Part shown: piece by piece, positions 1 to 34,717 of the stretch | How positions within the stretch are numbered: position 1 is the first letter of the stretch | Layout of the letters: each line of letters starts with the position of its first letter | DNA from: Mitosporidium daphniae | Taxonomy: Eukaryota; Microsporidia | Direction: 5' to 3' | Assembly (NCBI RefSeq): GCF_000760515.2 | Contig: NW_013546334.1 | Coordinates: forward strand, 1 to 35,096 | DNA length: 35,096 nucleotides | The notes under the pieces: generated by a model | Databases searched by the model: none | What the model was told of the DNA's origin: nothing | The model's input: the letters and a program-made list of their open reading frames with translations, nothing else | Made by a program: the position numbers and the translations under genes

Positions 1-2072
1 TCGATTCAGTTTGATGTTCTAATTGCTGGATTCTGTGCTGCCAGGCGAGACTGATGGGCTCTGTAGTTTCAGGATTTAACACTTGAAGTTTTCTTTCCAA
101 CTTTTCGATTTTCCGTTCAAGCTTTGATAGTTTCTCCGAACAGGTTGTGTATTGTTGCGCGACCAAGGCCTCAACAGGGGCAGTTGTAGAAAAATTGTCT
201 TTAATGCGGACTAACTCGTCAATTGAAAGGTCTTTAAACTGCTGCAGATCGGCAACCAACAAAATCAGCGGCTTTACATCTTTTAGGCCATCATTTAAGA
301 TTGAAATCTTTTCCGATATGCTCGATGTGAGCGAAGAAAGGTCGTTATGTCCAATTTCGTAACTATGAATAGCAGAGTTTTTTAAAAGCGAGAGAGATGC
401 ACTTGAAAGGTCCAATACATCCTTGATTTCATGAGAAATTGGATCCAATATCTTATGAATAGAAGAGTCTTTTGGAATATCCTAAAATTAACAAAATGGT
501 TCATAATACCAGCGACTCCATGCCAAATCTATCATTTTCAGCTCCAAATGATTGAACAGGTCCCGATGTGGTAGGTTCTATTTCAAAAGTGTCTGGTGAC
601 ATTTTAGCAGCCAGTTTAACCCCTAATCTTTGGTTTAGTTGGCCCTCCCGTAAAGTCTCTTTGATTTCTTCCGGTATACTTTCAGGTTTCTTTGCCTCAA
701 GGGGACTCTCTGGCAAAGACGAAAGTTTTTCATTGGAATCCATGTTGTGAATCGGTAAGGTTCTTAACGGGGTATCAATCATCGGAACGGACAGACCCTC
801 TGGAAAGAGAAATGAATATCCAACAATCCAGCCAATTGAATTCAGCAAGAATAGGAATGGGTGCTTTTTGGGCTTTGCCTCCCCCACTTCATTAGAAGAA
901 TTGAAAGAAAAAGTCCAGGGGCAGCAATAACTAACAGAGATACCTGTGCAAAATGTATCATATTCGTCCTCAAGTGGGGATTGCTTCTCATTTGGAAGCA
1001 TAGGAAGAGTAGCTAAATCTTCGTCTTCACTTGGAATGGAAACAGAAATAGAATTGGTCTGCTTATTGAAATATAAGATACATAAATCAGGTGAACAGCT
1101 TGACAGTAAAATTGAAACGGCTAGCCCTTCAAGCCCATTTTCTGTCGCAATAGCAGGTATTGAGACACAATGAAAGTAAGGAGGCTGGCTTTCTGGAATA
1201 TCCAGAGAAAATGTGGGATCCTCAAAGGGTTTGATGCTATTTTCATTGGTATCAATGACAATCAGCGATCTTTTCTTCGCAACCGTCTCAATGCAAGCAA
1301 GAAAATGGCAAGAAGAAAATTTTTCAATTACTTGGAAATATGTTAGCTCAGATGCAAAGGAAGAAAGCTTGGAAACACCCGTAAAGGTTTTCTCCTCAAT
1401 GTCATATGAAACAAGTGCATTGTCATTGGGAGAAAAGATTAGCATTTTGTTGTCATCCTCAACATACCATCCATCTATAATTTTGGATGTCATTTTGTGC
1501 TCAAAAGGTATCGAAATAAGCTCAAGAGTATTGGATTGCTCAAGAAACGACAACATATCAATAGAATGGTCCTCGTAAGAAACGGTGGCAATGCTATTGC
1601 AGAGCGAACTTGAAAAGACGCGGAGCTGTTTAATATTTTTGGCCAAACATAGCGTTGCTACACTTTCAGGGTGGCCGGTGTTGGGATCTTTTATAGCATA
1701 CAAAACAATTTCAGTTCGGCCTGCAACCAATAAAAAGCTCCCGCACTTCCGGTAAACAACATCAATGTATCGAATATCGTCCATTTGGGTAGCTATGGCG
1801 TTAGAAGCGACCTCTGAATCTGACATGGCATTTTTTGAGAAAAGACTATACACGGTGGAGCATGGGAGCCAGCGGACCGTTGTGTTGTCTTGACCCTTGA
1901 AGAAAAGAAGATTATTGATGCGATCAACGGCCAGAAAGTTGCAAAAAGCCCTTAAAGCAGCCAATGTGGTAGCACCTACCAGCCTGGGAGGGGATGGAAT
2001 GGCCGGCTGCCGAAATTTGAATGCCTAAACATAACAAAGATGAACACTTGCCCATTCAAACTCGATTGCCAT
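1..2072 (-). CDS. Nup159/Nup214-like nucleoporin, beta-propeller plus coiled coil, 3' end outside window
   Basis: Exons 2072-2046, 2024-510 and 481 to beyond the left edge, with introns of 21 and 28 nt; about 674 residues are visible. The first ~410 residues have beta-propeller-like alternation of hydrophobic strands. They end in a segment (PFLFLLNSIGWIVGYSF) resembling the last propeller strands of Nup214/Nup159. A Ser/Glu/Pro-rich linker follows with only two FG dipeptides (SFGAENDRFG), then ~160 residues of helix-rich, coiled-coil-like sequence still open at the edge. In the family this protein sits on the cytoplasmic face of the nuclear pore and recruits the mRNA-export helicase Dbp5. The long exon has no early ATG; the 9-residue first exon is my inference and gives ATG at 2072, only 49 bp from divergent UPF3. 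Nup82/Nup88 is the main alternative. Confidence 0.55.
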
Positions 2073-2121
2073 AAAAAAGTTAAAATTACAAACTTTTTTC
2101 ACTTGCTTTGCTCGTCTGCCT
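2073..2121. promoter_or_regulatory. 49-bp divergent intergenic region between the nucleoporin gene and UPF3
   Basis: Everything that initiates transcription of the two divergent genes must fit here or inside the neighbouring exons. The nucleoporin side carries a T-tract immediately before its ATG. No TATA box or other named element is obvious. The size depends on the inferred 5' exon of the nucleoporin gene. Confidence 0.4.
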
Positions 2122-3016
2122 ATGTCATCAGCTTTGCAGTGCACTGCTCCCTCCCCTTCACCCCCCAATCCACCTTCAAACCAGTCGATGGAGAGATTAA
2201 GGATTTGCATACGGAGATTACCGTCTTCGCTTTCGCACGACGATTTTCTGGCATTCTTGAATCAGACCCTTGATAAGGAGGCCAGTGCAATCCTGAACAC
2301 CACAGCGATTTCCTATGGCGTTGGAACGCCAAGTAAATCCAAAACTTCAGCTGCCTCTTTTTCATCTGCGGTATTTCTTTCTTTCCAATCTTCGGGCCAT
2401 CTAAATCGATTCTATTCTCTTGTAAATGGCAAGGCCATAAATAAGGAGGGATGTATCCCCATCATCGAATATGCGCCTATTCAGACCTTTCCTCTGATGC
2501 CACCTTCATTGAAGGTGAAGAATGACATCTTGGAGGGCACAGTTGAAGAAGGTATTTTTTATTGTTGTTATGATCCTTGGTGTAGACGAGTATTTCCTTG
2601 CTTTTGTTGAAGAGCTTACTCAGAAGCTCCCACCTGGCAAAGACACCGCCTCAATGAGGGCCGAAAAGATGGGCCCAGAAATTTTCCAAAGACCAAGGTC
2701 AACGCAAAAGGCATTTAAATTGGATTTGTCGCGTGAAAGCTCGAGCAACGATCCCTCAAAACATGTGGTGCTTCGACGACAGCAGACGGCCACGATCAAT
2801 GGTGGGCCGATTGCACCCAATGTTGCTTTGCCCAACCCAGAATACACAAAAGCGCCAGAACAAGATGACATTGTTGTGCGGGCCCAGCAAATGGCTGAAG
2901 AGGCCAAACTAAAATATTCAGAAGCCTCGACAAATGTTCCCGGCCAGAAGAAGAAATCGGTCTCTCGAAAGCCTGCGCATGCAAATCTGCAAACCCCGGT
3001 ACGGAAAAAAACCTAA
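2122..3016 (+). CDS. UPF3: UPF3 (Smg4/UPF3 family), nonsense-mediated decay factor
   Basis: Exons 2122-2551 and 2586-3016; the 34-nt intron splits a GAC codon and rejoins EGTVEE to DEYFLAFVEEL. The product is 286 aa. The N-terminal half is the RRM-like Smg4/UPF3 domain: RICIRRLPSSLSHDDFLAFL near residues 25-45, a middle strand with AVFLSFQSSGHLNRFYSL, then IIEYAPIQ. The remainder is basic and disordered, ending in a Lys/Arg-rich tail (KKKSVSRKPAHANLQTPVRKKT region). UPF3 bridges UPF2, and in some lineages the exon-junction complex, during nonsense-mediated mRNA decay. Start choice: the first ATG after the divergent gap; a second in-frame ATG 22 codons later, just before the domain, is possible. 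A family with very short introns still keeping NMD is consistent with intron-retention surveillance, but that is inference. Confidence 0.8.
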
Positions 3017-3161: not shown

Positions 3162-4840
3162 ATGCTAAGCGCATTATGTTGGGTCAATAGAGAGTGTGTT
3201 CGACCTGTGCCTGTGCGCCTCAAAATCACCGAAGAAGAGGCCAAAAAAATTATTGATGACCATGCCCACTTTGTTTCTCCCAGCTCCGTTGATTTTGTTA
3301 GGCATTCTGTTTCTTCATCTGATGATTGCTCAAATTCCGAATCTGAAGCCTGCATTTTAGATAGCATGGAAATGGCCTCCACTAAGGAGCATATTGACAT
3401 CGACGGCGAAATCGATACGGAAGAATCGATTATTAAAAAATACAACCTGAAGGATTACCCAGAAAGCTCGATGAGCCTTCTCTCTGCAGAAGACGAAAAT
3501 GTGTCCCCAACAAAGGCAGACTTTGAAAGGATATTTGCTGACATGAACACGCTTTCTCTTCTTTCGCCCAGGGACGATCCATACTTGCTTAAATCTTCCA
3601 AAAGCGCCAACCAGGATACCTCTGGGGCCGATGATTTCGATGATTATTTTGACGAGGAAGAGGATATGGATGATCTCACTATTCGCCCGACGGATTATCT
3701 TCTAGTCACCGCCAGAGTGCCCGAGGATGATGATATTGCACAGCTGGAGTTTTATGTCTATGAGGAGTCCGAAGATAATCTGTATGTCCACCATGACATT
3801 ATGCTTCCCACATTCCCGTTATGTCTGGAATGGGCTGATTATGCTACCGGCAGAGACTCCAGTCACGGTATGCATTTTTTAATTAACCGCCATGAAAGGT
3901 AATCTTGTTGCGGTTGGCTCTTTTGACCCGACCATTGAAATCTGGGATCTGGATATAATTGATCCTGTCTATCCCTATGTGATGTTGGGAAGTTCTGGCG
4001 ATAAAGGACCTCATAAAGAGGGATCAAAAAAACTATCCACTAAAAAGAAGGCTTTGGTTGATCCTTGGTTCCATACGGGCTCAATCATGAGCATCAGTTG
4101 GAATGCCATAACGAGGTTTGCATTTGCATCGTGACATGTTAGGAACTTGATAGCAAGTGCATCCAGCGACACCACCATCAAACTGTGGGATATCAATGGC
4201 CCGGAAAAGGCGATTCGATCTTTCAACCACCATTCTGATAAGGTTCTTATTTTTGCATAACTTCCAGGTATCTTGCGCATCGTTTTCGCCATTTGATGCC
4301 CCAATTATAGCAAGCACGTCATTTGATAAGAGCGTAAAAATCGTTGACATGCGGGATCCTTCCTCTTCTTTATCAATTGCTTTGCAAAGCGATGGCGAGG
4401 TGGTCAAATGGAACCCATTTGATGCGAATTTATTGGCTGTGGCTGATGAGAATGGAACGGTATATCTGATTGATCGAAGATCTACAGAGCCGCTTAGCAC
4501 GGTTGAGGCCCATTCCAAACCGATATCGTCGATTGATTATCATCCGCTGATACCAGGCCTTTTACTGACAAGCTCCTTTGATAAGCATTTGAAGATCTGG
4601 GACACCCTTGTTGCCTCGACTTTGATTTTCGACCGGAAACTCGGTGCCGGAAACCTGTTGACCGGATCTTTTTGTAAAAACAGCCCGTTTTTGGTGGCTT
4701 ACACTGGAACAGATTCTCAGGATCCTCATGTTTTAAATCTGAGCAACAGAAAGTCTTACAGATCAGACGTGCAATTTGAAAGCATGCAAGACTTGTTTGA
4801 AACGAGACTGCAGTCTATTCGAACGGCAAGCGCCACTTAA
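3162..4840 (+). CDS. PWP1: PWP1, WD40 ribosome-biogenesis protein
   Basis: Exons 3162-3867, 3899-4115, 4143-4242 and 4268-4840; introns of 31, 27 and 25 nt; 531 aa. The start MLSALCWVNRECV matches the short N-terminal strand of periodic tryptophan protein 1. A strongly acidic stretch (FDDYFDEEEDMDDL near residue 170) follows, then LPTFPLCLEWADY and the diagnostic VAVGSFDPTIEIWDLD. WD repeats include SSDTTIKLWD, SFDKSVKIVD and SSFDKHLKIWD. The protein acts in the nucleolus in rRNA transcription/processing and 60S maturation. The ATG lies at the end of ATTTTTTAAATATG. The gene follows UPF3 on the same strand, with an AATAAA near 3101 in the 145-bp gap. Splicing of all three introns is needed to keep the WD repeats in frame, so the model is well constrained. 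Confidence 0.9.
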
Positions 4841-4897
4841 TTAATTAATTTAAATATTCATGAACCTGTAAATTTTACTCGCCTAATCAATCATACG

Positions 4898-7096: not shown

Positions 7097-9677
<2,581 letters not shown>

Positions 9678-14282: not shown

Positions 14283-16572
14283 ATGAGCGAGGAACCCGAA
14301 CATGAGATTGGACCAATGCCTAAAAATGCACAGGAAGAGCACAAAATCAGAAAAATACCGGGCAAAAACAGCACAGAGCCATTAGCAAGCACAGAGCCAT
14401 TAGCAAACACAGGACCATTAGCAAACACAGGGCCATTAGCAAACACAGGGCCATTAGCAAACACTCCGCATGCATCTTCTTCACAACAGGGATCCCTTGA
14501 GACGCAGCAAAATCCCAAAAAACCGAAGTCATCTGCAGCCTTGTCACCAGCCATAAAATTTGACTTGGAACAACTGCCGAATTCGAAAAGATATGAAAAG
14601 AGCTATCTTCACAGGGATAACGTTACGTTGGTTCTAATTACCCCGTACTATGCTTGCTGTTCTAACTTTTAGTGAGACCGATTTTCTCATTACGGCATCT
14701 ATTGATGGGATTGTTAAATTCTGGGTCAAGGCAGAAAAGGGGATTGAATTTGTAAAAGCATTTAAATCTCACGCCGGCCCCGTGGGAAGACTCGCAACCA
14801 CCAAAGACGGGCTTTACTTGGCCACAATTGCAGTTCCTTCGGCAAAGGATGGCACCCTTAAATTGTATGATGTTGTAAATTTCGACATGTACCAAAGTGT
14901 CCCGGTCTCGTTTACGCCCCTCGCGTTAGCCTGGTGTTCTTTCAAGGCGTTTCTTTCGGCAAATATTATTTTATCTTCCGCTGAAAATACAAATGTATTT
15001 GTCATTGATTCAAAGTCAGGTAGCCTGCTTCATACGATTTGTCTTGGCTCGTTGCATTGTTCCCCAATTGAACTCCTGGAATTCAATCCCAAATTTGATG
15101 CTATGCTGTCTTCAGATATTAAACACGGTGTCTCCTTCTGGGGAATCGATTTAAATTACAACCCAGCCATATCGGCCAACTCGCTTTTTGCTACCAAATC
15201 CCAAACGGACTTTGGAGTTTTTGACAAAAAGCAAAGCCATATTTTGTCGATTACGTTTTCGCCGGACTATGGCAGGTTTGTTATCATGGATTCAAAGAGA
15301 CAAATCCGTATCTTTTGTAGCAAGTCTTGTCGGATTACCCATCAATTCGACGAGAGCTTAGAAAGTGCCTCTCGCCTACGCGACCTAGCATTCAAAAGGA
15401 AGGATAACCCTAACCCCCAAATACTCCCCTATCTAGTGGAACAGTCTGATTTTGATAAACGTCTTTGTTTGGAAAAGGACATCGATGGCCAAGTTGGATT
15501 GGCACTGGCCATACAAGACCACTCCACGCTGAATTCTCTTCGTCGAAATTGCGTTTTCAATGCAACAGGCACTCTTCTTCTATTTCCGACTCTGTTTGGA
15601 ATTAAAGTTGTGCATTTGGAATCCTCCTCCCTATTGTCCGTAATCGGTATGGAAGATGCAGGTGCTTGTCGCTATTCATGTGTGGCCCTTTTCCAAGGCA
15701 CTTGCTCCAAATATTCGAATACAAATTCCATCAAAAAGGCACTTCCAAGCACGGACATGTTGGCATCCGATAACCCTGTTTTGAAGGACATGTTTTTGCC
15801 TCCCGATCCTGTTTTATTTGCAACGATGTATAGAAAATCAAGATTTGTCTTGCTTTCAACAAGGCCGCCAGTGAAGCTGTAATGTGTCGCCCATGTAATT
15901 TTCCATGTAGATCCGAGCGAGATGTTATGAATGAAAAGGCCATCCGGGATGAGCATAAGGTAGAGGTGAAAGCACTTCCATATGAGGAGGATCCATCTCT
16001 CCTTGCAACGGCAAAGGGGAGAAAAATCGCTCTCATATACACCAACCTTGGCGAATTTCAGTTTGAGCTTTTCCAGGCTGAGGCGCCAAAGGCTGTCGAA
16101 AATTTCATTTACCTTTCCAGGCGAGGGTATTATGACAATGTGATATTCCATCGCATCATTAACGGGTTTATGATCCAAACAGGCGACCCAGCAGGTTGTT
16201 TCCCCTACACCACTCATGCCTAGGTGATGGAACCGGAGGGGCATCCAAATGGAACCGAAATTTCGAAGATGAAATTGTGCCCGCTTTGAGGCACGATAAA
16301 CCCTACACCGTTAGCATGGCCAATTCGGGGCCCAATTCCAACGGTAGGCCATTTCATTTGATTTGATCCCTTGTTTAGGGTCCCAATTTTTTGTGACAAC
16401 CATTGCTTGTCCTTGGCTGGACGGCAAGCACACCATATTTGGGCGATGCATTTCCGGAATGGACACCATTCATAAGATTGAGAAAACCCCTGTAAACAAG
16501 TATGACCGACCAACGAAAGAGGTGCATATCATCGGCATCGACATCAAGACAGACGCCGGCCATCGAGAATAA
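14283..16572 (+). CDS. PPWD1: PPWD1: WD40 repeat protein fused to a cyclophilin peptidyl-prolyl isomerase
   Basis: Exons 14283-14644, 14673-15878, 15911-16194, 16224-16343 and 16379-16572; introns of 28, 32, 29 and 35 nt; 721 aa. A disordered N-terminus with a hexapeptide repeat leads into [12 protein letters not shown] and [17 protein letters not shown], the diagnostic PPWD1 start of its propeller. [17 protein letters not shown] and CVALFQG follow. After ERDVMNEKA comes the cyclophilin domain: [46 protein letters not shown] and [11 protein letters not shown]. The catalytic Arg of FHRI and the QFF and W of the active site are present. PPWD1 is a spliceosome-associated isomerase, which fits this intron-rich gene set. 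The first intron has a textbook CTAAC branch site 8 nt from its AG. The stop lies inside AATAAA. Confidence 0.93.
14373..14462 (+). repeat. 18-bp tandem repeat, five copies, coding (T/G)PLAN hexapeptides
   Basis: Five consecutive 18-bp units of the form ACAGGGCCATTAGCAAAC, the first two with GAGCC in place of GGGCC and the third with GGACC. They encode [19 protein letters not shown]-type hexapeptides in the disordered N-terminus of PPWD1. Copies 4 and 5 are identical, which suggests recent slippage. The frame is preserved because the unit is 18 nt. Confidence 0.95.
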
Positions 16573-16581: not shown

Positions 16582-17257
16582 GGCGTTTATATTTCGTCGT
16601 CAGAGTCTCGGTCAGAGCGGTCGTGGTTGTTCGATCTATGGTTGTTGTTTGGGGAGACCTTTTTAAAAATGCCTTGGATTGAGCGAATTCAGCGATACCT
16701 GAAAGGGAAATCCTTTTCTCCAACTGGCCGGTGGTAAATGCGGTTGTTCCGCCCAGTTCATCGAATCCGATGATCCTACCCGTGTCAATGGTGCAGAAAT
16801 AGAATACCTGTCCGTCCGAATACCGTTTAAAAATACATCCAGACATGGAAGCACCTTGATTGCTAGCTTTTGCGTCAGAAAGGGCGCATCCAGCACATCC
16901 ATACGAGCCCATCGGATCATTGGATGAAGAGCCGCTAGTTTCTTTCAAAACAATTGATGCCAAATCGAATACCTTCAAATGGCAGTCTAAAACTTCACAG
17001 GTTTTGAATGAAGGCAGAAAAAAGTGGATGATAACCAGGGGCTCCTTTGTGGTCCACTCGAAAACCTCGGCCTCGTTTTGAGCAGAATGCAAATATCCGT
17101 AATGAGGCATGCTGCTGTCTTTCACTGGCTTGAGGACAGATTGCTGAAGCTCCTTCAGCCTTCGAAGGCGGTATTCACAAAAGAAAGAATCGTTTTCAGC
17201 AGAAAGGTTTTCCAGCTCCAAATCCAAACAGCACTCATCGCTATCAGAACGCGTCAT
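16577..17257 (-). CDS. PLP1: Phosducin-like / TXNDC9 (Plp1-type) thioredoxin-fold protein
   Basis: A single ORF of 226 aa with a true ATG at 17257. Residues ~27-45 (CEYRLRRLKELQQ) match the N-terminal helix of the family. GYLHSAQNEAEVFEW, then VIIHFFLPSFKTCEVLDCHL, match the thioredoxin-like beta strand and helix of TXNDC9/Plp1. IIGFDELGGTTAFTTGQLEKRI matches the strongly conserved GFxDLGxxxDFxTxxLE motif. The middle (~100-150) is divergent, Ser/Gly/Cys-rich and includes CAGC, where the family normally has the ERLxIxxxPT strand. The Thr-rich C-terminus is low complexity. Family members modulate the CCT chaperonin in actin/tubulin folding, and CCT8 is in this same window. A stop-free 48-nt intron near residue 150 is possible but not required. 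Confidence 0.7.
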   Translation of the reverse strand: MTRSDSDECCLDLELENLSAENDSFFCEYRLRRLKELQQSVLKPVKDSSMPHYGYLHSAQNEAEVFEWTTKEPLVIIHFFLPSFKTCEVLDCHLKVFDLASIVLKETSGSSSNDPMGSYGCAGCALSDAKASNQGASMSGCIFKRYSDGQVFYFCTIDTGRIIGFDELGGTTAFTTGQLEKRISLSGIAEFAQSKAFLKRSPQTTTIDRTTTTALTETLTTKYKRQ

Positions 17258-20300: not shown

Positions 20301-21113
20301 AAATTCGGCAAATGCCGTGCACAGCTTAAGGCCTGTAATGAAAAGAGCCTTGGGCGCTGATGAAGAGGAGCCCGAAGAAAGCGCGCCAGTAGACTCCCCT
20401 TTGGATTCCATTAATTGACCGTATTTGGAGATGATGAAATTTACGAATGATGGCCAAAAAACGCGAGACTGGTTGACAATGGCTGACTTCAAATCAAATT
20501 TTCTGCAGTCAGACATGTGCGGATCAACAAAAATAAAAACTTCCTCGATCAAGTGCGTTATTATCAGCAGTGACAGCTCCATGTGAATGTACTTGAAAGT
20601 TAAAAAAGCATACCAACCTGAGCAGAACTCATCAACGACTCCAGCATTGGCCAAAGCTCCGGCCAATTTTGTGGCCACATTCTGACAGCCACAGAAACGG
20701 CAATTTTCGATATTTTTTCCTTAATAGGATATGGTTCTTCTCCGAAGCCGCCCTTCATTTGTGATAAAAGAAGTGTAACAATTTGGTCTCGTAGCGCGAG
20801 CTGTTGCGTAAAATTCCAGTTGTTCCATTGCGTATTGAGAAAGTGCTCAATTACATGGCAACCAAAGAGCCTTAGATTTAGCGGAAGGTCATTTTTGCAA
20901 GATATCAATTGAATGCTAACGGAGAGAGCCTGGTCAGATTCTTTGAGCGACTGCAAGAACTATCGTGGAATGAACATCATAACACTCACCGACTCTGAGC
21001 GTTTCCTATCTACAATTGTTGCCTTTGGATCCAAGATTATATCAAGAGCCTTATTTATTGGAGAAACTACAAATAAGAATAAATTGCCAACCTTGGGATA
21101 AGGCGACATCCAT
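17307..21113 (-). CDS. XPO5: Exportin-5 / Msn5 karyopherin
   Basis: Exons 21113-21092, 21066-20990, 20959-20618, 20591-19662, 19626-17941 and 17909-17307; introns of 25, 30, 26, 35 and 31 nt; 1219 aa, close to yeast Msn5 and human XPO5. The spliced N-terminus reads ALDIILDPKATIVDRKRSES, then FLQSLKESDQAL, LRLFGCHVIEHFL and RMWPQNWPELWPMLESL. These are the importin-beta N-terminal repeat and exportin-1-like region. The C-terminal exon has MMRWKDSVSCDKAINISQRIV, matching the conserved W-(K/Q)-D-(S/T) segment of exportin-5. The long middle is HEAT-like helices. The protein exports RNA and phosphoprotein cargo with Ran-GTP. All exon sums restore the frame. An ATTAAATAAA run lies ~25 nt after the stop. 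Confidence 0.85.
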
Positions 21114-21435: not shown

Positions 21436-21957
21436 ATTTTCCACCAAAGGAAATAGGTCACTAAGACATTTGATCAAACAAAGCCAGGCTGATGCTCACT
21501 ACAGCTCGGGCATTTGGAGTTTAATCTTGAAACTATCATGTCCTCTAATTCTAGCTCGATGCCATCGATAGATGGCCGTCACTTCTCAATTATAGAGAGG
21601 AAACATCCACCATGCATCGGCTGCAAGTTGCTTCTCAACAATGTGTGAGCTGCGTATACTTAAAAGCGGAGCAGCCCTTCATTCACAGCCTTCCATCGAA
21701 GCAATGCAGCGTTTCAACGTCGTTTAAAGTCTAAGGCTAGGGCTGTCTATAACTAGAGGTCATGATGAGGCTTAATTTTAAAAAATTACATCACTTTGAA
21801 GGGATTCACCAAGAATACGCTCGATATGCAGTAAGATTCAATTGGTTCCTTCGAAATAAAATGTAGCAGGGGCATGGACGAGCAACCGAGCTAGAATTGG
21901 GATTCGAGCTATAAAAACACTTTATTTATGTGCCCCAGACATCAAAATGTTGCGGCG

Positions 21958-22118: not shown

Positions 22119-23306
22119 TTAAACCTGTGGATCCTCAAAGGAGCAGCATGAAGAGTCTGCTAAAATGATTAAAAAAGCTTTTTTGATACCTGCATTTTCA
22201 TCATCTTCTTCTTCGTCGTCATATTCGTCATTGCCAGTATGTCGACCACCATTGACACCATCAGAATCACTATTTTCTAGCATTTGATTATCATTAGATC
22301 CAGCATTCAATTCGGTCCTCCTGAGGTCGCGGAGGTAGATATCTTTTCCAGAACAGAAGCCCTCCTGCACCTGAAATAGAGTGAGAGCCAGGCGAGGGCC
22401 CGTCTCCACAAGATGCAGCTTTCTTGTAGCCTTTTTCTTTTTTGAAAGCTTCAATTCGGCAGAAACGCCCTGGTCGGTGGGATCCTTTTTTGCGGCTGCA
22501 ATATTCCTTGAAATTAGAGTGATGGCTTACTCAAGAACAAAATCGGCCAAATCTTTGCCGGCTTCAATGATTTCTGAAATGTTTTTTTCTGCTTTTGACA
22601 GGATTTCTCGTATCGATGATTCTGGATCCCTCACCATGATTTTATATTGGCGGATCTGGATTTGATCCTGCTTTGGATGATAACTAAACAAAAGCACGCG
22701 CTTCGCTTGCGATAATTGCGCCTAACCCTGTCAAAAATGGAGCGACTTACATGTGAAGAGAAATTTGATGGGGGGAACAAATTTTTGAGGAAGGTTTCAC
22801 AGAGCACCAAATGGCTTTCGGGGTTCTCTCTTTCAAAGCCATCGAAAATAACAAGCGGGGAGAGCGAAACTGCATTTCCAAGAGACACCGGATGTGGCAT
22901 GCTGTTGAAAACATCCTTCATCAAAGAATACGAGTCGATGTTAAAATAAAGGGTCGGCCCTTGTGAAAAGCGTGCCATTCTAAGCACCGAGTTGAAAAGG
23001 GTCTGCGAAAAAAAGAGGCAATTTGTAACGTTCAGTTGGCTACACACGGCCATATAGTCCTTGATTTTGGTTGTTTTTTTCTCGACCAGATTGATGGCGG
23101 TTCGGGGACTCATCATTGTGCGAAAGTTGAGCACCAACTCTGCGAGCAGCGGGCTTTGAACAGAGCCAAGTTTTACAACAAACGAGGAAGGGCCTTCGCT
23201 GTTGTTTTTTGTGTGCTCTTGCGACTGTACAGCTGAAGCCTGACGCTGTCTCTTGTTTTTTTTCCTCTAAAAATAAAAATCAAAAAGACACAACATTTCG
23301 GGCCAT
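22119..23306 (-). CDS. SSF1: SSF1 / Peter Pan, Brix-domain 60S biogenesis factor
   Basis: Exons 23306-23295, 23266-22751, 22721-22531, 22506-22190 and 22159-22119; introns of 28, 29, 24 and 30 nt; 358 aa. Exon 1 encodes only MARN, which joined to RKKNKRQR gives the usual basic N-terminus. SFVVKLGSVQSPLLAELVL, MSPRTAINL, FSQGPTLYFNIDSYSLMKDV, AKRVLLFSYHPKQDQIQIRQY and KLHLVETGPRLALTLFQVQEG follow the Brix domain order of Ssf1/Ppan. The C-terminus is acidic (DEYDDEEEDDENA). The Brix domain binds pre-rRNA, and Ssf1 acts in early 60S assembly and 27S processing. Without the second intron the conserved VLL-Y strand falls out of frame, so that junction is well supported. The last intron is stop-free and a multiple of three. 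Confidence 0.9.
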
Positions 23307-23359: not shown

Positions 23360-25229
23360 TCATTCGTCGGCATCGATGGGGCCGGCGGCCTTTGGCTTTG
23401 GACCCCCCGCGGGCTTGCTCATCACAATGGAGTCTATACGCAGAATTGAAAGCGCAGCATCGACCGCAAGATGCAATGCAGATGCCTTTGTTGCATAAAG
23501 ATCCATGATCTGGGCATCAAGCACATCTAGGGTGCCATTTTGCTGTCCAAGCGATTCCACATCTACACCGATGGATCGCTGACCTGCCTCATGGGCAGCG
23601 GAAAGCTGCGCGAGAATCTGCAAATGGTCAAGCCCGCTATTTTCGCAAAGGATTTTGGGGATCGCCTCCAGGGCCTGGCCAAACTTTTTGATGCCATATT
23701 GAGTGAGACCTGGAATGGCTACTGCCATGTTTTGCAAATATATGGAGAGAGCCATCTCGGTTGCCCCTGCACCAGGTAGCAACCGGCCATCCTTGGTAAG
23801 CGATTTTACAACATTTACACCATCATCAATGGCTCGTTCCACGTCATCCAAGAAATTCAGTGTGGACCCTCTTAGAACTATCGAAGCGATCCTGGAGGTG
23901 GAATCTAAAAGCTTAGTAAAAGAGGATTCCATACCGCTCTTGAAAATTGTGCATAAATCGGAGCCAATTTCAATCGTTTCAACCAGGTCGCAATATCCCA
24001 TCTCCTCGGCCATAGGGGCACCCTATTGATTACAAACGATCTCTATACAAGTCTGGCAAGGGCGGTAGCCCCAGTGGCGCGACATAGTCTTTGAAGGTCA
24101 AACTTTGAGGCAATTCTGAAGGCAATAAGTCCATATTGATTGATAAAGTGAAGTGTGATGTCGCCAATTGTTCCGCCAGTAACGATCACTTTTACTCCGC
24201 TGTCCGAAATTTCTTTGACTTGGGCCTCGACAAGCTTTTCTTCTCCAGAGCTGAAGGAGATCAGCTCGGAGGCATTGCGAAGAAGAACAGTGCCTTTTGT
24301 CTCTGTCCTCCCAATGTCAAGCGGACACGAAAATATGGCTACTTTGGCATTTGTGGCTCGTTTAAGGCGACCTAGTGATAAATAAAATTTCCCACAAATT
24401 GATACTTTCTGGCTCTCTGTTGAAAACCATGCCATGGACCAGTGTAGAATCTGCAATGGAGCCTCCCATCACTTTAACAACCCTAATCGAGTCTACATTG
24501 AAGCTTTTCGGATTCTTCGACGGCATAATGGTAACGCATGCGTCAGCAATGAGTCCGGAGAGCAAATCCTCATATCCATACTAGGATGATAAGATTTAAG
24601 GCCACCCACCTGCTTGCTAGAAACGGAAGATTTAATTGCAAAAATTAAATCCTGCTTTGTGAAGGTCGAAATAGTTTGAATGACAAGTTCTGCAATGTAA
24701 AGTTTTTGTGTGAGATGATTACCTTTCATGTGCAAAGAAGCCAATTCAAATGCCCTCTCATATCCATCGATAATGTCGCTTGGATGAATTCCAATTGAAA
24801 TCAGCTCTTCGGCCTTTTTTAGCAATTCACCAGCAAAGACAAGAACAAAATTGGTTTGGTCGCCATTCTAGTCGTCAGGATGAACCCTACCTCTTGTTCT
24901 TGCTGTTGCGACGCCATGACCAACAGCTTGGCTGCTGGATGCACAACATCAAGCTCTCTGATAATTGTCGCTGCATCATTGGTAACGAAAAGCTTTTCCA
25001 GCTGATTGACGATAAGTTTGTTCATTCCTGCACGATGAAGCGGATGAACATACCGTGCGGCCCAAACGAGGTCCTAGTAATTCTGCACAAATCTTGGCAC
25101 GCCGAAATGTTACGCAAAATGGCATCCTCAACATGCTATAGGAATGTGGTTGAGCGCACAACGACATACCTTATATCCTTCCTTGAGGAGTGTCGTGAAT
25201 GAATTGGACTTTCCAACTTGCAACGCCAT
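23360..25229 (-). CDS. CCT8: CCT8, theta subunit of the TRiC/CCT chaperonin
   Basis: Exons 25229-25170, 25135-25054, 25027-24891, 24867-24610, 24580-24406, 24371-24049 and 24022-23360; introns of 34, 26, 23, 29, 34 and 26 nt; 565 aa, a normal length. Theta-specific sequence is clear: LLKEGYKHVEDAILRNISAC, TSFGPHGMNKLIVNQLEKLFVTNDAATIIREL, HPAAKLLVMASQQQEQE, LVHGMVFNRE, ETKGTVLL, GATALARL, LRGSTLNFLDDVERAIDDGVN, LPGAGATE and the terminal SIVMSKPAGGPKP. The nucleotide-binding GDGT motif reads GDQT at residues 95-98 across the third exon junction. CCT folds actin, tubulin and WD40 proteins, several of which are encoded nearby. The ATG lies in ATTTTTAAATG; AATAAA follows within ~10 nt of the stop. 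Confidence 0.95.
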
Positions 25230-27039: not shown

Positions 27040-28710
27040 ATGACAAAAAGATCAGTTCTCACGAATAGCAGTCACGATGCTCACAAAAGTGAGCATGCAA
27101 TTTCTTCCCAATGCCCATCTCCACTTTCACTGATTAAAGATTCGAAATCGTCTAAACTAAAAGTTGTGTGCGGTAGCTAACTTTCTGTTATTTCTAGTTA
27201 TGGTTGGGCTTCCCGCCAGGGGAAAGACATTTATGGCAAGAAAGTTATGCCGCTATCTTTCATGGCTCGGCTATTCGGCAGCAACATTCAATGTTGGTAA
27301 CTATAGAAGGGGGCAAGCCGGCCCGAGCGTACACCATTCCTTTTTCGATCCGGAGAATGAGGAAGGGGTAGTTTCGCGAAAAAAAGCGGCAGAAGCGGCC
27401 CTCAATTCACTTGCTGCCTGGTTGAACGAAGAAGACTCGATCGGCCAATGTATGCAGAGCCTTTCCTAATGATAGCGTTTTATTCGAACGAAAATGACCT
27501 ATCCTTTGTGCTGGCCGAGTCTATTGGCAAAGTGGCCATTTACGATGCCACCAATTCTACTCGCGATAGGCGACTTTGGATTGTAGATCAAGTTTTGAAG
27601 CTTAAAGCTGCCTCTTCTTCTTCACAAATCCTTTTCATAGAAAGTGTTTGCAATGACCTTGGCATTGTTAACTCCAACATCATACAAGTCAAGCTCTCTT
27701 CGCCAGACTATAAGGACTCGGCAGATCCTGAACAGGCGAAAATCGACTTTATTAGGCGAATAAAGCACTATGAAAATGCCTATGAGCCGCTCTCGGAGGA
27801 AGAATGGTCTTGCACTGGTAAGTTGTCCTTACCCAACCCAAGGAATCGATCCGCTACCTCCAATGATCAAGATCATTGATGTGGGTAAAGAAATTAAGCT
27901 CTCCAATTGCAAGTGGTATTGGCAGACAAGGGTCGCCTCTTACTTGATGAATCTCCACATAACGCCGAGGTGTATTTATATTTTTCGTGTACCTTTGATC
28001 AAATTTCATTCATCCTAGCATGGAGAATCCGAATTCAATCTACAGGGCCGAATCGGGGGCGATTCATCGCTCTCTGAAAACGGGATTCTATTTGCAAAAG
28101 CGCTTCCAGAATGGTTGCGAAACCACTTTGGCGTCAAAAACAACCTTACGGTACTTGCGGTCCTTTATATTTCCCAACCTTTTGGCATCATTTTCGTGAT
28201 AAAAATTCTTGTTTTATTTATTCGATTTTGATGAAATAGGTTTGGACGTCCACTCTCAAGCGATGCATAGAGACCGCAGTGAACCTTAACTATCCAAAGC
28301 TTGCATGGAAAGCGTTGGACGAGCTCAATACAGGCATCTGTGATGGGATGCGCTATGAAGAAATAGAAACCATGTTCAGCAATGAATATTCCGCCAGAAA
28401 TAAGAACAAGTTCTATTATCGATACCCGAACGGGGAATCCTATGCAGATCTTGTATTAAGGCTTGAACCAATCATAATTGAGCTTGAGAGGCAGAAGGAT
28501 ATTTTGGTGATCGGACATCAAGCCGTACTTCGAGCAATTGTTGCGTATTTTACGGGCGTCACACAAGAGCAATTGCCCTATGTAGTGATCCCATTGCATA
28601 CGGTCTTAGAGCTGCGACCGATGACATACAACTGTGAGGTCATCGAGCATCATATTGGAATCCCCGCTGTAGATACGCACATAGACCGCATCAAACTACC
28701 TCTGAGGTAA
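27040..28710 (+). CDS. PFKFB: 6-phosphofructo-2-kinase/fructose-2,6-bisphosphatase (bifunctional)
   Basis: Exons 27040-27172, 27198-27449, 27476-27817, 27843-27988, 28019-28150 and 28240-28710; introns of 25, 26, 25, 30 and 89 nt; 491 aa. The kinase half has Walker A GLPARGKT (48-55), FNVGNYRR and YDATNSTRDRR. The phosphatase half has RHGE with the catalytic His at 292, GRIGGDSSLS, WTSTLKRCIETA, the catalytic Glu in LDELNTG (363) and the second His in IGHQAVLRA (428). The residues for both activities are present, so it is likely able both to make and to degrade fructose 2,6-bisphosphate, which sets glycolytic flux. The intron after IFR separates the RHGE motif. Some yeast paralogues lack the phosphatase His; this one does not. 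The start follows ATTTTTTAAATG. Confidence 0.93.
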
Positions 28711-28847: not shown

Positions 28848-28867
28848 AATTTCTTTTACCCTTAATA

Positions 28868-31800
28868 ATGCACCCAGACATTGTCAAGTTCAAGTCCATC
28901 CACATTCGAAATGTCGTCATATTGGCCCACGTGGACCATGGTATAATGACACGGTTTTACTTTTTTAGGAAAAACGACGCTTACAGATAGTCTTCTCGCG
29001 CATCAGGGTCTTATTTCCCAATTCCAAGCCGGCCAGCTTCGCTACCTTGATTCGCTCCCGGAGGAACAAAGAAGGGGAATTACAATGAAATCAGCATGTG
29101 TGGCTTTAAAATATGCCCCAATAGCGGCCAGACTTTACCCGGTCGACAAGTTAACATATTTGAGAAGCTCTCTTGGGTCTGATCATCTCGCGTTGGATGC
29201 ACTCTCCATTTCCGGCCCTGATTTAGGTTCTTCCAAAAGCCCTGGGAGCTATAATAATCTGAATAGGGACTCAAATGTCCCTGTCTCTTTGGTGTCCTCA
29301 TCAAAGCATGATTCCGAGCACATACTTGTGCATCTGATAGATACGCCTGGCCATGTTGATTTTTACGGTCAAGTATATTGCTCAGCACAGCTTGCAGATG
29401 GGACTATCATCGCCGTAGATGTGTCCGAAGGAATTTGCGCCCAAACAATGGCGGCTTTTCATCTGGCATGGGACCTGCGATTGGTGCCTGTCTTGTTTTT
29501 GAACAAAATTGACCGACTTATTGTGGAGCTGCATCTTTCGCCTATGGAAATATTTAATCGTTTGCTACAGCTTCTAGAATCTGTCAATGCAACATGTAGC
29601 ATTTTTCGCCATCAAACCCCATCATGCCCCCTTGATGTAGAAGAGGGCGATCCTTTCTATTTTGAGCCAAGAAAAGGAAATGTCCTTTTTGGATCGGCGT
29701 TGGACGGTTGGGCGTTTCGTTTGAATCTGTTTGCAAACTTGTTTTCTAAGAAAATTCCAACGCTTCCCAAACGCGAGCTAAATCAGAAGCTTTGGTCGGC
29801 GTCTTTTTTCTTGTCGAAAAGGCGCGAAATTCTTCCTGTTGAAAAGGGCGAAACTCCCCTTTTTGTTTCTCTTATTATGGAAAACATTTGCTCCGTTTAT
29901 AAGGCCCTCCTTTTTGACGATGGTACAGAACAAATTCAAAAGATCTGTCAATCATTTTCGCTATCATTTACCCCGGCGTCCGTCAAGGATAGAAAAATGC
30001 TACTCCGAACAATATTCACGAGCTGGATTCCATTGGCTCCCTGTGTTTTTGATGCGATTGCTGACTCCATTCCTTCAGCTCATTCTCGAAGGGTGGGAAT
30101 TTTTGGTGATCATTGCGAAAAGGGAGCTGGAACGACACTAGCATTCCTGGCAAAACCGATCATATACCCTGAACTGACTGAAGAACTCTTGAGGAGCAGT
30201 ATCTGTGAATGGACACGTCCCACCATTCAAAACGGCTTAGAAAATGAGCACGAGTCTTCACTGACTGCCCATTCTTCTTGCCCTTTAGAAAAACTGGTGA
30301 TGATGGGGCGACTATATTCTGGAGCCCTTTCTACCGCCTCTATTGGTGACATTTACTTTTCGTCATCAAATGCTATTGGGTTTGACGGGACCAAGTTTGA
30401 CCGCCACACATTCAAGCTGGAGAAAGGCCGCTTCCGTCTCTACCAACTTATGGGGTCGAAGCTCATTGAGGTTGATTGTGTTCCCGAGGGAAACATCTTT
30501 GGTATCTCTGGAGTGTTAAGCGCAACAAAGGGCATCTTTGTCAAAAGTGGTACGCTTACATCTTTGCCCGTTGATGAAAAAATTCCGATCCATAGTTATT
30601 CCTGTCCTAGCAAAATGCCACTTTATCACAACGATGCTTCAAATTCTCTGCATGGCACACCTGATGATCATCAAACATCTTCGGCAATGATGGGTGTACC
30701 ATTGATCAGTGTTTCTGTAGAGCCTACAACATCCCTACGTGATCTTACACAGCTGCAGTTTGCACTGCTGCTACTTTATCAAACCGATCCATCGATCAAT
30801 GTCTCATTTACGGACATGGGTGAGTTGATCCTCAAAACTTGTGGAATGCTGCATTTAGAGCAATCTCTTAAAGAGCTCAAGTCGCTAGTAAGCTTTCCGA
30901 TTTCAGTATCTGATCCCATCGTTCCGCTAGGTGAAACCATTGGCGATGCACAGACAACAAAACAGGTTCACCACATGCAAGAAAACTTTTCTGTTCTCGC
31001 ATGTCTAAATCCCTCGTTTTTCAGGGACTTTTCCGATGTCTCTGCAAAACCGGATGCTTTGATTGAGACAACATGTGGCACGTACACACAAAATCGAATT
31101 TTTGATCCAAATTCTGGTGCTGAACCGGATCGTTGTAAATTGGTTGGTTGTGAGATGAACGACGCCATTTGCTCGTGTGTGCCCCTGAAAATGGAGGCAA
31201 GCATTGGCGATCAATTTTGCACATTGACGCTCAATGTCACTGTTGTCAAAAACAACACCTGCACACCAACACTTACGATTGACCCCAGTTGCGCAACGTA
31301 TGAAGAGATTATTAAAAGGGCCTTTTCAATTGCCATCTCAAATGGCCCTTTATGCGGAGAGCGAGTTTATGGTGTTGGATTTTCCATTCTCCACCTTTGT
31401 CTCGATGGTCAGCATCTTTCCGATTTCGATAAAACATTGCTGTTTTCGCCGATACGCAAGATGCTTCATCTTGCCATTCTTCTTGCAGACCCAAAGCTGA
31501 TGCAGGGATATAATGAAATTTCTATCCTGGTTCCAGGTTCGTCCCATTTCGATGTCCATGCCCTACTTTCTCCATTAAGATATTTGTCTTCTATATTGGG
31601 CACAATGTTTCACCATATTTTGTGTTTCCATATTTTGTTTCCCCATATTTTCGCTCCCTTTTGGTGCTAATTTTTATTTGTTGTAGGAGAATGGCTGGGT
31701 AAAGTATATGCGCTGATCAGCAAATCGGAGGGCGATATCATTGTGGGATCCGAATTTATCGCTGAGCGCAATTCATTTCACATACTCACGCACGTTCCGG

Positions 31801-32099
31801 TGCGGTTTTCAGCCGCTTTTGTTGATGGTACTGGAAGACCTATACCCAACCCTAACCCTATAGAATTGAGGTCAAAAACAGCCGGTGCCGCCTTTGTCAA
31901 CATTTCGTATTTTGGGCTCAAAGCCATGAAGGGTTCTTTGCTTGTCTGCACAGATTTGATCGAAAATGACACTGCTGTCATGGACCATTCCTCCATACAA
32001 CGAGAACTTGCCCAAAAAACCCGAATTAGAAAAGGACTGTTTGTTTCAACAAAGCTCACGCTTGATGGTGAAAAACAGCGAACGCTTAGGAGATGCTAA
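28868..32099 (+). CDS. EFL1: EFL1/Ria1, EF-2-like GTPase of 60S maturation
   Basis: Exons 28868-28940, 28969-31536, 31687-31827 and 31864-32099; introns of 28, 150 and 36 nt; 1005 aa. G1 is AHVDHGKT (20-27, split by intron 1). Switch I ends RRGITMKS, G3 is DTPGHVDF and G4 is NKID. Later, the joined exons give ISILVPGEWLGKVYALIS and FVDELRSKTAGAAF, both matching conserved EFL1/EF-2 segments. The end TRIRKGLFVSTKLTLDGEKQRTLRRC is the typical EFL1 terminus. With the SBDS protein, EFL1 releases eIF6/Tif6 from nascent 60S subunits in the cytoplasm. The 36-nt intron is stop-free and in frame, so an ORF finder would translate it. Splicing removes 12 extra residues (GTGRPIPNPNPI region) and restores the family sequence. 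Confidence 0.92.
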
Positions 32100-32260
32100 C
32101 GCGATTGACATTGCATTCAAACGATTTGCAATGGTCCTTATATAAAAACGGCGTTTATATCGGCATTTATGCACCTCAGGCTCTTCGTATGGTGCCCTGA
32201 ATGATGACCACACATGCCTTGAGCGTTACCTTCATCGATGTACGCCCTTAATTTCTTTAA

Positions 32261-32443
32261 ATGCTCCGCAGCAAGCTCAATTTGGCCGCCATGCCATATG
32301 GTAATCTATTAAAGCAGTTTGATGTTCTTTCTAGCTATGAAGAAAGACTCATGGGAAAGCAAATGGTATCTGCCGATGAATCCAGGTTCCCAACTGATAC
32401 GGAAGATTCCTCTGTTTTGGATGTGGAAAACATGTCCCTTTGA
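32261..32443 (+). CDS. Small hypothetical ORF (60 aa), antisense to the ATG13 3' end
   Basis: Begins at an ATG in CTTTAAATG, similar to the start context of several genes here, and has a plausible composition (LLKQFDVLSSYEERLMGKQ, then an acidic Ser/Thr-rich end). No family is recognised. It overlaps the ATG13 stop region on the opposite strand by 109 bp, so it is either a real small overlapping gene or a shadow of that exon. Nothing else occupies 32100-32334, the 235-bp gap between the EFL1 and ATG13 stops. Confidence 0.2.
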   Translation: MLRSKLNLAAMPYGNLLKQFDVLSSYEERLMGKQMVSADESRFPTDTEDSSVLDVENMSL

Positions 32444-34717
32444 GAACGATCCATGTCTGTTGCCTTATCAATGGAGGAAGCGGAAAGCTTGGCTGCAAAG
32501 CTCTCAGACATGCTCAACGCCGTTTGCAGAGTCTCCTCCACTGCTGTCGAATCACGGGTACAAATATCCACACCTTCAATCCACGATTTGTATTCATTTT
32601 TGAGACGTTTGAATTCGATCTAGCATGCGGTTATGATCCAAAATATGTACCAGCGATTGAACCATCGAGTATGACGGCGGGGCGTCCGAAATCTTGCAAG
32701 ATACTTTGGGGTAAGAAAGAGCAAATGGCGGGTAGTCTCCTTGTGAAGGATCCACTTGCACGCTATCACGCACATGCACAGAAAATGGCGTCTGCTTTTT
32801 GGAAATTATTTCATTTTCAAGCAGCGAGGGAACCTTCACACAAGAGGCAAATCCTGGGAACGTGGAATCGTCACCATCCTCTGCAGCGGGTGCAAGCGTG
32901 GCAAAGTCATTTCCTTTTTTGAGCACACATGTTGACCGACATTCAGAGCGTGGTTTGCCCCCAAATAAGGGCAGCTCTTTTTTTTCAGCTTCCACGTTTG
33001 GAAACTCGTCAGGACATGCTAAAAACTTCTAACATTAAAGGTGATCGCCATACAAGTCTTTCCGAAATATTTTCGGGCTTGAAAAAATGTTCATCCAGAT
33101 CGGACCATTGCGACGTGTTGTACGCATGTATAATGGTGGCCGACTCTAGGGATAAGGTCGCGTCGTTTTTTTGATGGACATCTAGTTTCGAGCAAGATCG
33201 TCTCAAAGCAGCCCCTGGCGCAAAAGCACACGAGGACTCGTCCACAGGAGCCAGATATGAAACGCTTATATGAAACAATCTACATTGATGGTGTGAATTA
33301 TGCAATACCCGTGAAGCGATCTTAGTGGATCCAGTGAGTGCCTTTTGACCGTGTCAACAAAATCATCCTTGTCAGAGCAGGGCTTTACTAGAGACATCAA
33401 ACATGGGAAACAACAAACCTAGCGGCTTTAAAGTATACTTTTCGCCATTTTCGTGTGAAAGACCTATAATGGATAAGAAAACAGCGCACGGTATTAATTT
33501 TAGATGAGCGAAAACTAGCGAAAAGTACGTACCTGACACATGCAGCCTGAAGGCAGGCTTGAAAAATTCCTCGCAATCCACCATATCCGTCTTTAAGAAA
33601 AGGCTAGAAAGGGGAAGCAACCCACAGATTGACATTATCGATCTTATAAGCAAAGTGGCCTTTTTATAGATTGACGGTAGAGACTCCAGTTGCTCTTTGG
33701 AAGGCGAAATTGGGGCAAAATAAATTTCCCACTGTTCGAAGGGGATAAATTTTTCTGGCAAAATGTCCATGTAGAGTGCGCTTTTTCGGTCGGTCGTCAT
33801 AAATTTTAGATTTGGCGACAATTCCCGCTGCCCATCTATGGCAGCAAGCATGGACTTTGTTGCATACGATGTGTCCGATTTCAATTCAATAAAGTAGCTT
33901 CCAAGCTCTTGCGACAGGGCTTCCAAAAAATGCTCCTCCGATAGTTCTTCTGCTCGCTTGCTAAAAATGGACGATGAGTTGATGTGGCAGTCTCCATTTT
34001 GGCCTAGTTTTCCTTCAGACGTTTTTCGCACAAGAGATTCTAAAGCCAGCTCCTCCATACAGGTGTAGTTAATTTCGAATCCAAAATATAAGCTAATTAC
34101 CGGGGATGATTCGCTCGATAAATGCGGGGCGAAACAATGTCCAGCCGTCATCTCATTGAAGGGATTCAAAAGCTCGCTTCGGAAATCTTCATTTTCCGTG
34201 AGATCCAACTGGAACTAGGGCTATTAGCAAACCAGAACCAACCCATTTGTTGATATTTGTCATCAAATTATCAAATTCTTCCGAAATCGATCCGGATGTG
34301 TTTGAGAGCTTTAAAGATCTCCTTAATTCCCAAAGGATAGCCAATAAACGCGTAACTAATTTCTTGTGCAGTGCCTCGCAGGACGGGCTGCAGACTAAAC
34401 GATACAGGATAAATGTGGACGAAAATACTTTGTAGAGCTGGTCTTTTTACAGCAGCTAGTCTTGGTGATATGCCCGCCGTAGATGCTGACGATGGCGATG
34501 ACGCGGACGAGGAAAGTGAAGAGGATGGTGATGGTGAAGCGCTAGAAAATGTACAAAGCTCGCCCCGAGTTCCGATGAGGGAGTTTCGTGGGCCAGAGAA
34601 ATACTTTTTAGATTCCTCTATAAATGGCCTGTCCTCATCCTTTGGGGAAGACGAGCCTGACCGCGCAGGTGGGCACATTCTCGATGCTTTCCCGTTAATT
34701 GGGATATTGGAGGACAT
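32335..34717 (-). CDS. ATG13: ATG13-like HORMA-domain autophagy regulator
   Basis: Exons 34717-34429, 34394-34243, 34214-33533, 33463-33419, 33387-33309, 33279-33054, 33028-32651 and 32619-32335; introns of 34, 28, 69, 31, 29, 25 and 31 nt; 711 aa. The diagnostic HORMA segment is FIPFEQWEIYFAPI followed by ESLPSIYKKATLLIRSIMS and GLLPLSSLF. Splicing also restores INKWFQLDL (compare KWFNL in Atg13) and LHGLFHISVSYLAP, equivalent to the terminal GTLSISVSYR strand. All exon sums fit the frame. A ~95-residue Ser/Pro-rich segment precedes the HORMA helix, which is unusual; the start codon is the least certain part. The C-terminal half is disordered, as expected for the Atg1/Atg17-binding tail. ATG13 activates the Atg1 kinase complex. 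Confidence 0.8.

Follow-up and report, generated by a model that had tools for sequence, protein, structure and literature searches.

Predicted spliceosomal introns close to a minimal working size in the genome of the microsporidian Mitosporidium daphniae

A 35,096-nt contig of Mitosporidium daphniae (NW_013546334.1, assembly GCF_000760515.2; the whole stretch is hereafter called the window) was analyzed for short intervals with GT-AG ends that interrupt its genes, and these intervals are very probably genuine U2-type spliceosomal introns that have shrunk near the working minimum of the M. daphniae spliceosome. Mitosporidium is a gut parasite of Daphnia whose microsporidian relatives are almost intron-free, and microsporidia are the textbook case of intron loss. 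The intervals are regarded as genuine because of their effect on reading frames, the family alignments that cross them, the recovery of GT-AG ends, and the genomic matches to U1, U2, and U6 small nuclear RNAs (snRNAs), Prp8, Slu7, Prp18, and U2AF35.

With a gene finder, family profiles, and reading, we placed 49 GT-AG introns in 12 genes of the window between positions 482 and 34428 (Table 1), 46 of which are 21–36 nt long, while the remaining three measure 69, 89, and 150 nt. An earlier note on this DNA had described 50 introns in 12 genes, 47 of them of 21–36 nt, together with exceptions of these same three lengths, and our independently built models agree closely with it; as the note gave no list, the agreement is one of counts and lengths. 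Its appeal to exon frames and family motifs also stood, as spliced frames are open to the last stop in all 12 genes (the first gene runs to the window edge) and domain or family alignments cross 31 of the 49 junctions. These comprise 17 junctions crossed by Pfam or solved-structure matches, two in the AAA gene, eight in CCT8, and four in PFKFB; among the 17, three depend on WD40-type matches that score under the cut-offs of those models. GT-AG ends that restore the frames of conserved genes are the mark of U2-type spliceosomal introns. The gene finder was self-trained, with splice-site matrices seeded with 15 hand-picked short introns, and was run with two length priors, one a short-length prior and the other flat from 15 to 60 nt and lower beyond. 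GC content of the window is 41–46% (2-kb blocks), and that of the genome, which spans 4.66 Mb in 147 contigs and is placed in Microsporidia by NCBI, is 43% (PMC5701793; here and below, published statements are taken from parts of the cited sources).

It is very improbable that the intervals are coding, either as lineage-specific inserts of 7–12 residues or as programmed frameshifts. Five of the 49 are multiples of three without an in-frame stop (22160–22189, 23905–23934, 24690–24722, 31828–31863, and 33464–33532), and at 23905–23934 nine of 120 CCT8 homologues carry at least five extra residues; such cases would suit a coding origin. Against it, 37 of the 49 lengths are not multiples of three and 22 of the 49 introns bring in an in-frame stop if retained, and the excess of GT-AG ends, the distinct composition, and the common length also argue for introns. 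Assembly errors (indels) that mimic introns are scarcely conceivable. The gaps do break frames, but they are 21–36 nt long with GT..AG ends rather than errors of one or two bases, and the same length class dominates the predictions in the window as well as in 20 further stretches, each group of predictions taken together, from 20 contigs.

The splice ends were compared with chance by a spliced aligner that accepts any intron ends and any length from 10 nt under a flat penalty, with no splice motifs supplied. When CCT8 was aligned to a profile of 114 homologues with one of the 256 dinucleotide pairs at a time allowed as ends, GT-AG ranked first (518 vs. 481 nats). In a pool of CCT8, PFKFB, and six further CCT genes from the genome, with 64 of the 256 pairs tried, GT-AG reached 2202 nats and the best of the 63 other pairs 2024 nats, which are 178 nats apart. 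PFKFB alone placed GT-AG only fifth of 256 pairs. Codon-bias gene finding alone was too weak, with GT-AG only narrowly the best of 10 pairs tried (517.7 vs. 505.4). Inserts of at least five residues occur in zero to two of 120 homologues at seven of the eight CCT8 junctions, and in PFKFB they occur in none of 120 at three junctions and in one and 23 of 120 at two junctions with poorly conserved flanks. Long exons (15.1 kb) contain 506 GT..AG pairs of 21–36 nt, of which four outscore the median real intron and 14 outscore the lowest tenth, with scoring matrices that had themselves been trained on those real introns, which indicates that ends, size, and composition jointly discriminate fairly well, not perfectly.

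Intron lengths were surveyed over 235 kb, consisting of the window and the 20 other stretches, with 94 predicted genes scoring at least 10. The flat-prior run yielded 194 introns, 158 of them at 23–36 nt and 31 longer than 36 nt. At the short end, there is one intron each at 15, 17, 19, 21, and 22 nt, followed by 12 at 23 nt and a mode at 25 nt (28 introns). This length histogram, a partial version of the genome-wide one that the earlier note had proposed as a check, has a sharp onset at 23 nt, and because the prior was flat over 15–60 nt, the distribution was not imposed by the length model, although the splice-site matrices were still seeded with short introns. Narrow lengths with a hard lower edge are characteristic of the ultra-short intron class (about 15–35 nt). 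In a curated set of 65 introns (46 from the window and 19 from the six other CCT genes), the median is 29 nt and the mean 28.8 nt (sd 3.4), the latter two being conditional on a cut at 36 nt that excludes the three longer window introns. Density is 1.28 introns per kb of coding sequence with the flat prior and 1.62 with the short-length prior; scaled from the survey, the whole genome would hold roughly 3,800–5,100 introns.

Gaps judged non-intronic (36 nt in locus L003, 27 nt in L006, 42 nt in L007, and two in L004, of 62 and 19 nt) were kept out of the CCT set, as were gaps of 83 and 97 nt, and one 35-nt intron in L006 was shifted by eye from the motif-free gap to GT-AG. On the reverse strand of L003, a 58-nt gap (1450–1507 of the reversed locus) can be read as adjoining mini-introns of 31 and 27 nt, joined AG|GT without an exon between them, and was counted as such. 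It is possibly a tandem intron; a suitably placed AGGT is not rare by chance.

Splice signals in the 65 curated introns are weak. At the donor, A occupies the third position in 68% and G the fifth in 40%, with 1.04 bits over positions +3 to +6; 83% have a TAG acceptor, and the intron interior is T-rich (42%) and poor in G (13–16%). The earlier note had seen a CTAAC/CTAAT-like branch site in many introns. CTAAC occurs in only 5% and CTAAY in just 14% (shuffled mean 4%, shuffled maximum 14%), whereas the looser YTNAY, found in 72%, exceeds the shuffled mean of 46% and the maximum of 58% in 300 shuffles, so that the branch-site claim of the note is only partly borne out, in this degenerate form. 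The best branch motif has a log-likelihood of 25.0 against 10.2–15.2 in 10 shuffles, from 30 search starts for the real set and 10 for the shuffles. Where YTNAY stands near the end (47 of the 65 introns), the putative branch A precedes the intron end by a median of 8 nt and follows the donor G by a median of 19 nt (13–29). The commonest hexamer is present in 12% of the introns, or in 22% if one two-fold site is allowed. In species that have few introns and strong sites, published values exceed 50%, and they are below 30% otherwise (PMC2483917); set beside these, with a count that follows the idea and not the exact method of that study, M. daphniae belongs to the weak, intron-rich type. The canonical microsporidian set, few introns with a strong donor and branch consensus, is not what the genome presents.

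The snRNA searches covered U1, U2, and U6, each of which gave one match in the genome. The U1 match carries GUACUUACCUG at its 5′ end, with ACUUACCU near the 5′ end; the U2 match carries GUGUAGUAUCUG, including GUAGUA, and the U6 match carries ACAGAGA. Prp8 is represented by its U6-binding domain within a 2419-aa frame, so that these snRNAs and Prp8 are all encoded. A Slu7 match is present, U2AF35 is 58% identical to the human protein, and Prp18 is matched with identical scores at three places (C56:50046-50384, C80:2158-2496, and C118:10369-10707), reflecting either recent duplication or assembly redundancy. The Y14/RBM8A gene (L042) encodes a 166-aa protein and has four predicted introns of 27–31 nt. 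To judge from UPF3 in the window and Y14 outside it, the genome has kept parts of the exon-junction complex (EJC) and nonsense-mediated decay (NMD) system.

In the mechanism that we propose, the weak donor would pair with U1, U2 would find the degenerate branch site YTNAY, whose A lies mostly 6–9 nt from the intron end, and the AG would be read by U2AF35. As the donor and the branch site would be separated by just 13–29 nt or so, both ends would have to be recognized together across the intron (intron definition). Size and T-richness would stand in for strong motifs, and the abrupt start at 23 nt would mark the smallest intron that the M. daphniae spliceosome can sterically accommodate.

Several points weigh against the reading of these intervals as genuine, near-minimal introns. 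Splicing itself is deduced from sequence, and intron definition, which is consistent with the 23-nt edge and the branch geometry, is drawn solely from that geometry. Eighteen of the 49 window introns have no alignment across the junction and were called from frames and gene-finder models, and some window introns were placed otherwise by the flat-prior run than in the final models. In the eight pooled genes taken singly, GT-AG ranks 1, 3, 2, 1, 1, 4, 2, and 1 of 64 pairs and is therefore not top in four. A branch-site consensus does occur upstream of the acceptor but is weak. Finally, the standard early-recognition model calls for SF1 and U2AF65. Among the spliceosomal homologues that the earlier note had singled out, U2, U2AF35, and Prp8 were matched, whereas an exon-by-exon search without a positive control gave no match for the SF1 N-terminal domain (SF1-HH), and no U2AF65 was recognized among the nine of 30 exon-by-exon matches read (seven genes: L034, L035, and L039–L043). 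The matches read were rejected as U2AF65 and are presumably other RNA-binding proteins, L042 being Y14. The best BBP-type KH match (L036) is one that we take to be KHDC4-like, and RBM17/SPF45 gave no match in a search without a positive control. Given the exon-by-exon searches, the share of matches read, and the missing SF1 control, the absence of SF1 and U2AF65 is a lead, not a result.

A different possibility is that the introns are real and many of them are poorly spliced, or regulated by retention and NMD, which we consider unlikely. In Encephalitozoon cuniculi, fewer than 50% of transcripts are spliced at 30 of 37 introns (PMC3629993), and both the weak signals and the presence of parts of the NMD/EJC system (UPF3 and Y14) would fit such a situation in M. 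daphniae. Introns nevertheless lie within conserved domains of CCT, EFL1, and PFKFB, and lengths divisible by three show no clear depletion (18 of 65), unlike in Paramecium (PMC5014332).

Taking the intervals as near-minimal introns, we assigned them to the genes listed in Table 1, where several names are our own assumptions. We take the gene with introns 482..509 and 2025..2045 to be NUP88-like, the WD40 gene with introns 3868..4267 to be PWP1-like, the AAA ATPase gene to be AFG2/SPATA5-like, the gene with intron 16673..16698 to be phosducin/TXNDC9-like, and the Brix-domain gene to be SSF1/PPAN-like. Pfam searches of the spliced NUP88-like and phosducin/TXNDC9-like models gave no match, and the UPF3 model had no match in solved structures. 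Two further introns (25 and 30 nt) outside the 49 were predicted at 25292–26384 in a gene presumed to encode a FYVE-type zinc finger. For the PPWD1-like intron 16195..16223, the 29-nt form was picked by reading (GDGTGG). In CCT8, the GT-AG alignment run dropped the short first exon next to 25136..25169. In PFKFB, spliced alignment favors an 83-nt gap starting at the same donor as 27450..27475, and 27818..27842 is covered by a 52-nt gap in the motif-free alignment.

Three candidates were rejected by reading because the retained reading resembles normal protein: 17824–17845 (22 nt), 9367–9384 (18 nt), and 12615–12644 (30 nt), the last of these in a long gene that is otherwise unbroken. Telomere-like CCCTAACCC/GGGTTAGGG words occur within the window at 15408–15416, 31850–31858, and 34955–34963; the one within the 36-nt EFL1 intron provides that intron's CTAAC branch-like site. 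Between the exportin-5 and Brix genes, where no gene is predicted for about 1 kb, there is a short direct repeat (TTTTACGCGTCTTTAGGGTCCATTTT-like, two copies) at 21393–21445.

Table 1. Predicted introns of the window, with position, strand, and basis of each call (stop, in-frame stop on retention; inserts, homologues with extra residues at the junction)
Gene	Length (nt)	Position	Strand	Basis
NUP88-like (presumed)	28	482..509	-	Joins two long frames; gene finder, frame
NUP88-like (presumed)	21	2025..2045	-	Gene finder; stop; no crossing alignment; weakest of all
UPF3	34	2552..2585	+	Pfam Smg4_UPF3 residues 24-163 span junction residue 143
PWP1-like WD40 (presumed)	31	3868..3898	+	Gene finder, frame
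PWP1-like WD40 (presumed)	27	4116..4142	+	Spanned by beta-propeller match 294-415, E 1.8e-27, below model cut-off
PWP1-like WD40 (presumed)	25	4243..4267	+	Spanned by beta-propeller match 294-415 (below model cut-off)
AAA ATPase	28	7202..7229	-	Set by reading; spliced frame open to stop
AAA ATPase	28	7464..7491	-	Pfam AAA match spans junction (earlier gene model)
AAA ATPase	30	7654..7683	-	Pfam AAA match spans junction (earlier gene model)
AAA ATPase	29	7774..7802	-	Short-length-prior gene finder; flat-prior run picked 64-nt variant
AAA ATPase	29	7947..7975	-	Short-length-prior gene finder; absent from flat-prior run
AAA ATPase	28	8072..8099	-	Links 527-aa frame to AAA part
PPWD1-like (WD40 + cyclophilin)	28 (TTCTAACTTTTAG)	14645..14672	+	WD40 match 91-196 spans junction, below model cut-off
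PPWD1-like	32	15879..15910	+	Links WD40 part to cyclophilin part
PPWD1-like	29	16195..16223	+	Pfam cyclophilin 565-711 spans junction (model with 26-nt donor variant)
PPWD1-like	35	16344..16378	+	Pfam cyclophilin spans junction
Phosducin/TXNDC9-like (presumed)	26	16673..16698	-	Gene finder
Exportin-5	31	17910..17940	-	Pfam Exportin-5 320-1153 spans junction residue 1019
Exportin-5	35 (TGCTAATGGGGTAG)	19627..19661	-	Pfam Exportin-5 spans residue 457; flat-prior run picked 47-nt variant
Exportin-5	26	20592..20617	-	Pfam Xpo1 110-275 spans junction residue 147
Exportin-5	30	20960..20989	-	Gene finder; stop
Exportin-5	25	21067..21091	-	Gene finder
Brix-domain	30	22160..22189	-	Short-length-prior gene finder only; multiple of 3, stop-free on retention
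Brix-domain	24	22507..22530	-	Pfam Brix 43-285 spans junction residue 241
Brix-domain	29	22722..22750	-	Pfam Brix 43-285 spans residue 177; flat-prior run picked 95-nt variant
Brix-domain	25	23267..23291	-	Gene finder, both runs
CCT8	30, stop-free, ending TTTTACTAAGCTTTTAG	23905..23934	-	GT-AG spliced alignment at penalty 8, not at penalty 9
CCT8	26	24023..24048	-	Spliced alignments; inserts 0/120
CCT8	34	24372..24405	-	Spliced alignments; inserts 0/120
CCT8	29	24581..24609	-	Spliced alignments; inserts 0/120
CCT8	33, stop-free	24690..24722	-	Spliced alignments; inserts 2/120; flanks only 24% identical
CCT8	23	24868..24890	-	Spliced alignments; inserts 0/120
CCT8	26	25028..25053	-	Spliced alignments; inserts 0/120
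CCT8	34	25136..25169	-	Motif-free alignment sets 25-nt gap within; inserts 1/120, median 3 extra residues
PFKFB	25	27173..27197	+	Inserts 0/120; flanks 55% identical
PFKFB	26	27450..27475	+	Gene finder; flanks poorly conserved; inserts 23/120
PFKFB	25	27818..27842	+	GT-AG spliced alignment; inserts 1/120; flanks poorly conserved
PFKFB	30	27989..28018	+	Spliced alignments; inserts 0/120
PFKFB	89	28151..28239	+	Spliced alignments; inserts 0/120
EFL1	28	28941..28968	+	Alignment to solved EFL1 chain (5anb) spans residue 24
EFL1	150	31537..31686	+	Alignment to solved EFL1 chain (5anb) spans residue 880
EFL1	36, stop-free, containing CCCTAACCC	31828..31863	+	Retained in query, its 12 residues fall within a gap of 12 residues in the EFL1 alignment
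ATG13	31	32620..32650	-	Gene finder, both runs
ATG13	25	33029..33053	-	Gene finder, both runs
ATG13	29	33280..33308	-	Pfam ATG13 304-426 spans residue 416
ATG13	31	33388..33418	-	Pfam ATG13 304-426 spans residue 389
ATG13	69	33464..33532	-	Set by reading; Pfam ATG13 spans residue 374; multiple of 3, stop-free on retention
ATG13	28	34215..34242	-	Gene finder, both runs
ATG13	34	34395..34428	-	Gene finder, both runs

Gene predictors with a larger minimum intron length would break such genes. Searches with the spliced CCT8 and PFKFB found no M. daphniae protein among the best 120 of 4827 and the best 120 of 6610 matches, respectively, the best identities among the matches listed being 58% and 54%. 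For the intronless CCT1 of the genome, a database protein named M. daphniae matches at 100% identity over 97%. The lowest listed scores were 609 bits (CCT8) and 424 bits (PFKFB), and a residue is worth about 2.07 bits (1068 bits for 516 aa), so that a deposited model of an allowed length with some 300 correct CCT8 residues or 210 correct PFKFB residues should be among the best 120. From these two genes, the deposited CCT8 and PFKFB models are probably broken at mini-introns or missing from the database.

Very short introns are known from several lineages. Those of E. cuniculi, in the same phylum, are likewise GT-AG and very short (22–76 nt), but number 37 and have relatively strict donor and branch motifs, in contrast to the weak motifs and about 1.3–1.6 introns per kb of coding sequence of M. 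daphniae (PMC3629993). The mikrocytids Mikrocytos mackini and Paramikrocytos are also reduced parasites with many size-constrained tiny introns; they differ in belonging to Rhizaria and in having introns of 16–17 nt (224 in M. mackini) with highly conserved sequences, compared with the heterogeneous 23–36 nt here (PMC10245619). Introns of around 25 nt are found in Paramecium and Nyctotherus, where, unlike the 18 of 65 in M. daphniae, lengths divisible by three are under strong pressure, and nucleomorph introns are mostly 18–20 nt (PMC5014332). Stentor has 15-nt introns with U2-type factors in its genome, with Slu7 and Prp18 given as N/A (PMC9505925), whereas both are matched in M. daphniae. 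The placing of these introns near the known lower limit in the earlier note needs qualifying, as introns of 15–17 nt have been published and the E. cuniculi range starts at 22 nt. Intron lengths of M. daphniae are absent from the literature passages covered here (including PMC8476143, PMC12449221 on an improved M. daphniae assembly, and PMC12534020 on two Mitosporidium species described in 2025); the Haag 2014 genome paper lies outside this scope, and we do not claim that the lengths are unpublished.

Over 263 fungi, intron densities of 0.22 per kb for the microsporidian ancestor, 0.01 for the current microsporidian mean, and 2.53 for Rozella have been given, in a study that terms a 63-bp mean intron relatively short and whose main text makes no mention of Mitosporidium (PMC8476143). 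With 1.3–1.6 introns per kb of coding sequence, mostly of 23–36 nt, M. daphniae falls between the ancestral and Rozella figures and is intermediate. This suggests that shrinkage came before loss, a view that hinges on the phylogeny and on an old age of the introns. We tentatively consider it possible that M. daphniae represents an intermediate stage with thousands of introns of about 28 nt and weak signals, that mass loss and a tighter consensus came later, that some of these introns are missing from the deposited models, and that early recognition operates with U2AF35 and without SF1 or U2AF65. Since tiny introns of 15–17 nt are already known from Stentor and Mikrocytos, the value of the present case is evolutionary, as shrinkage without mass intron loss, and a spliceosome of the fungal lineage in which Slu7 and Prp18 have been kept offers a system for asking how small introns can be.

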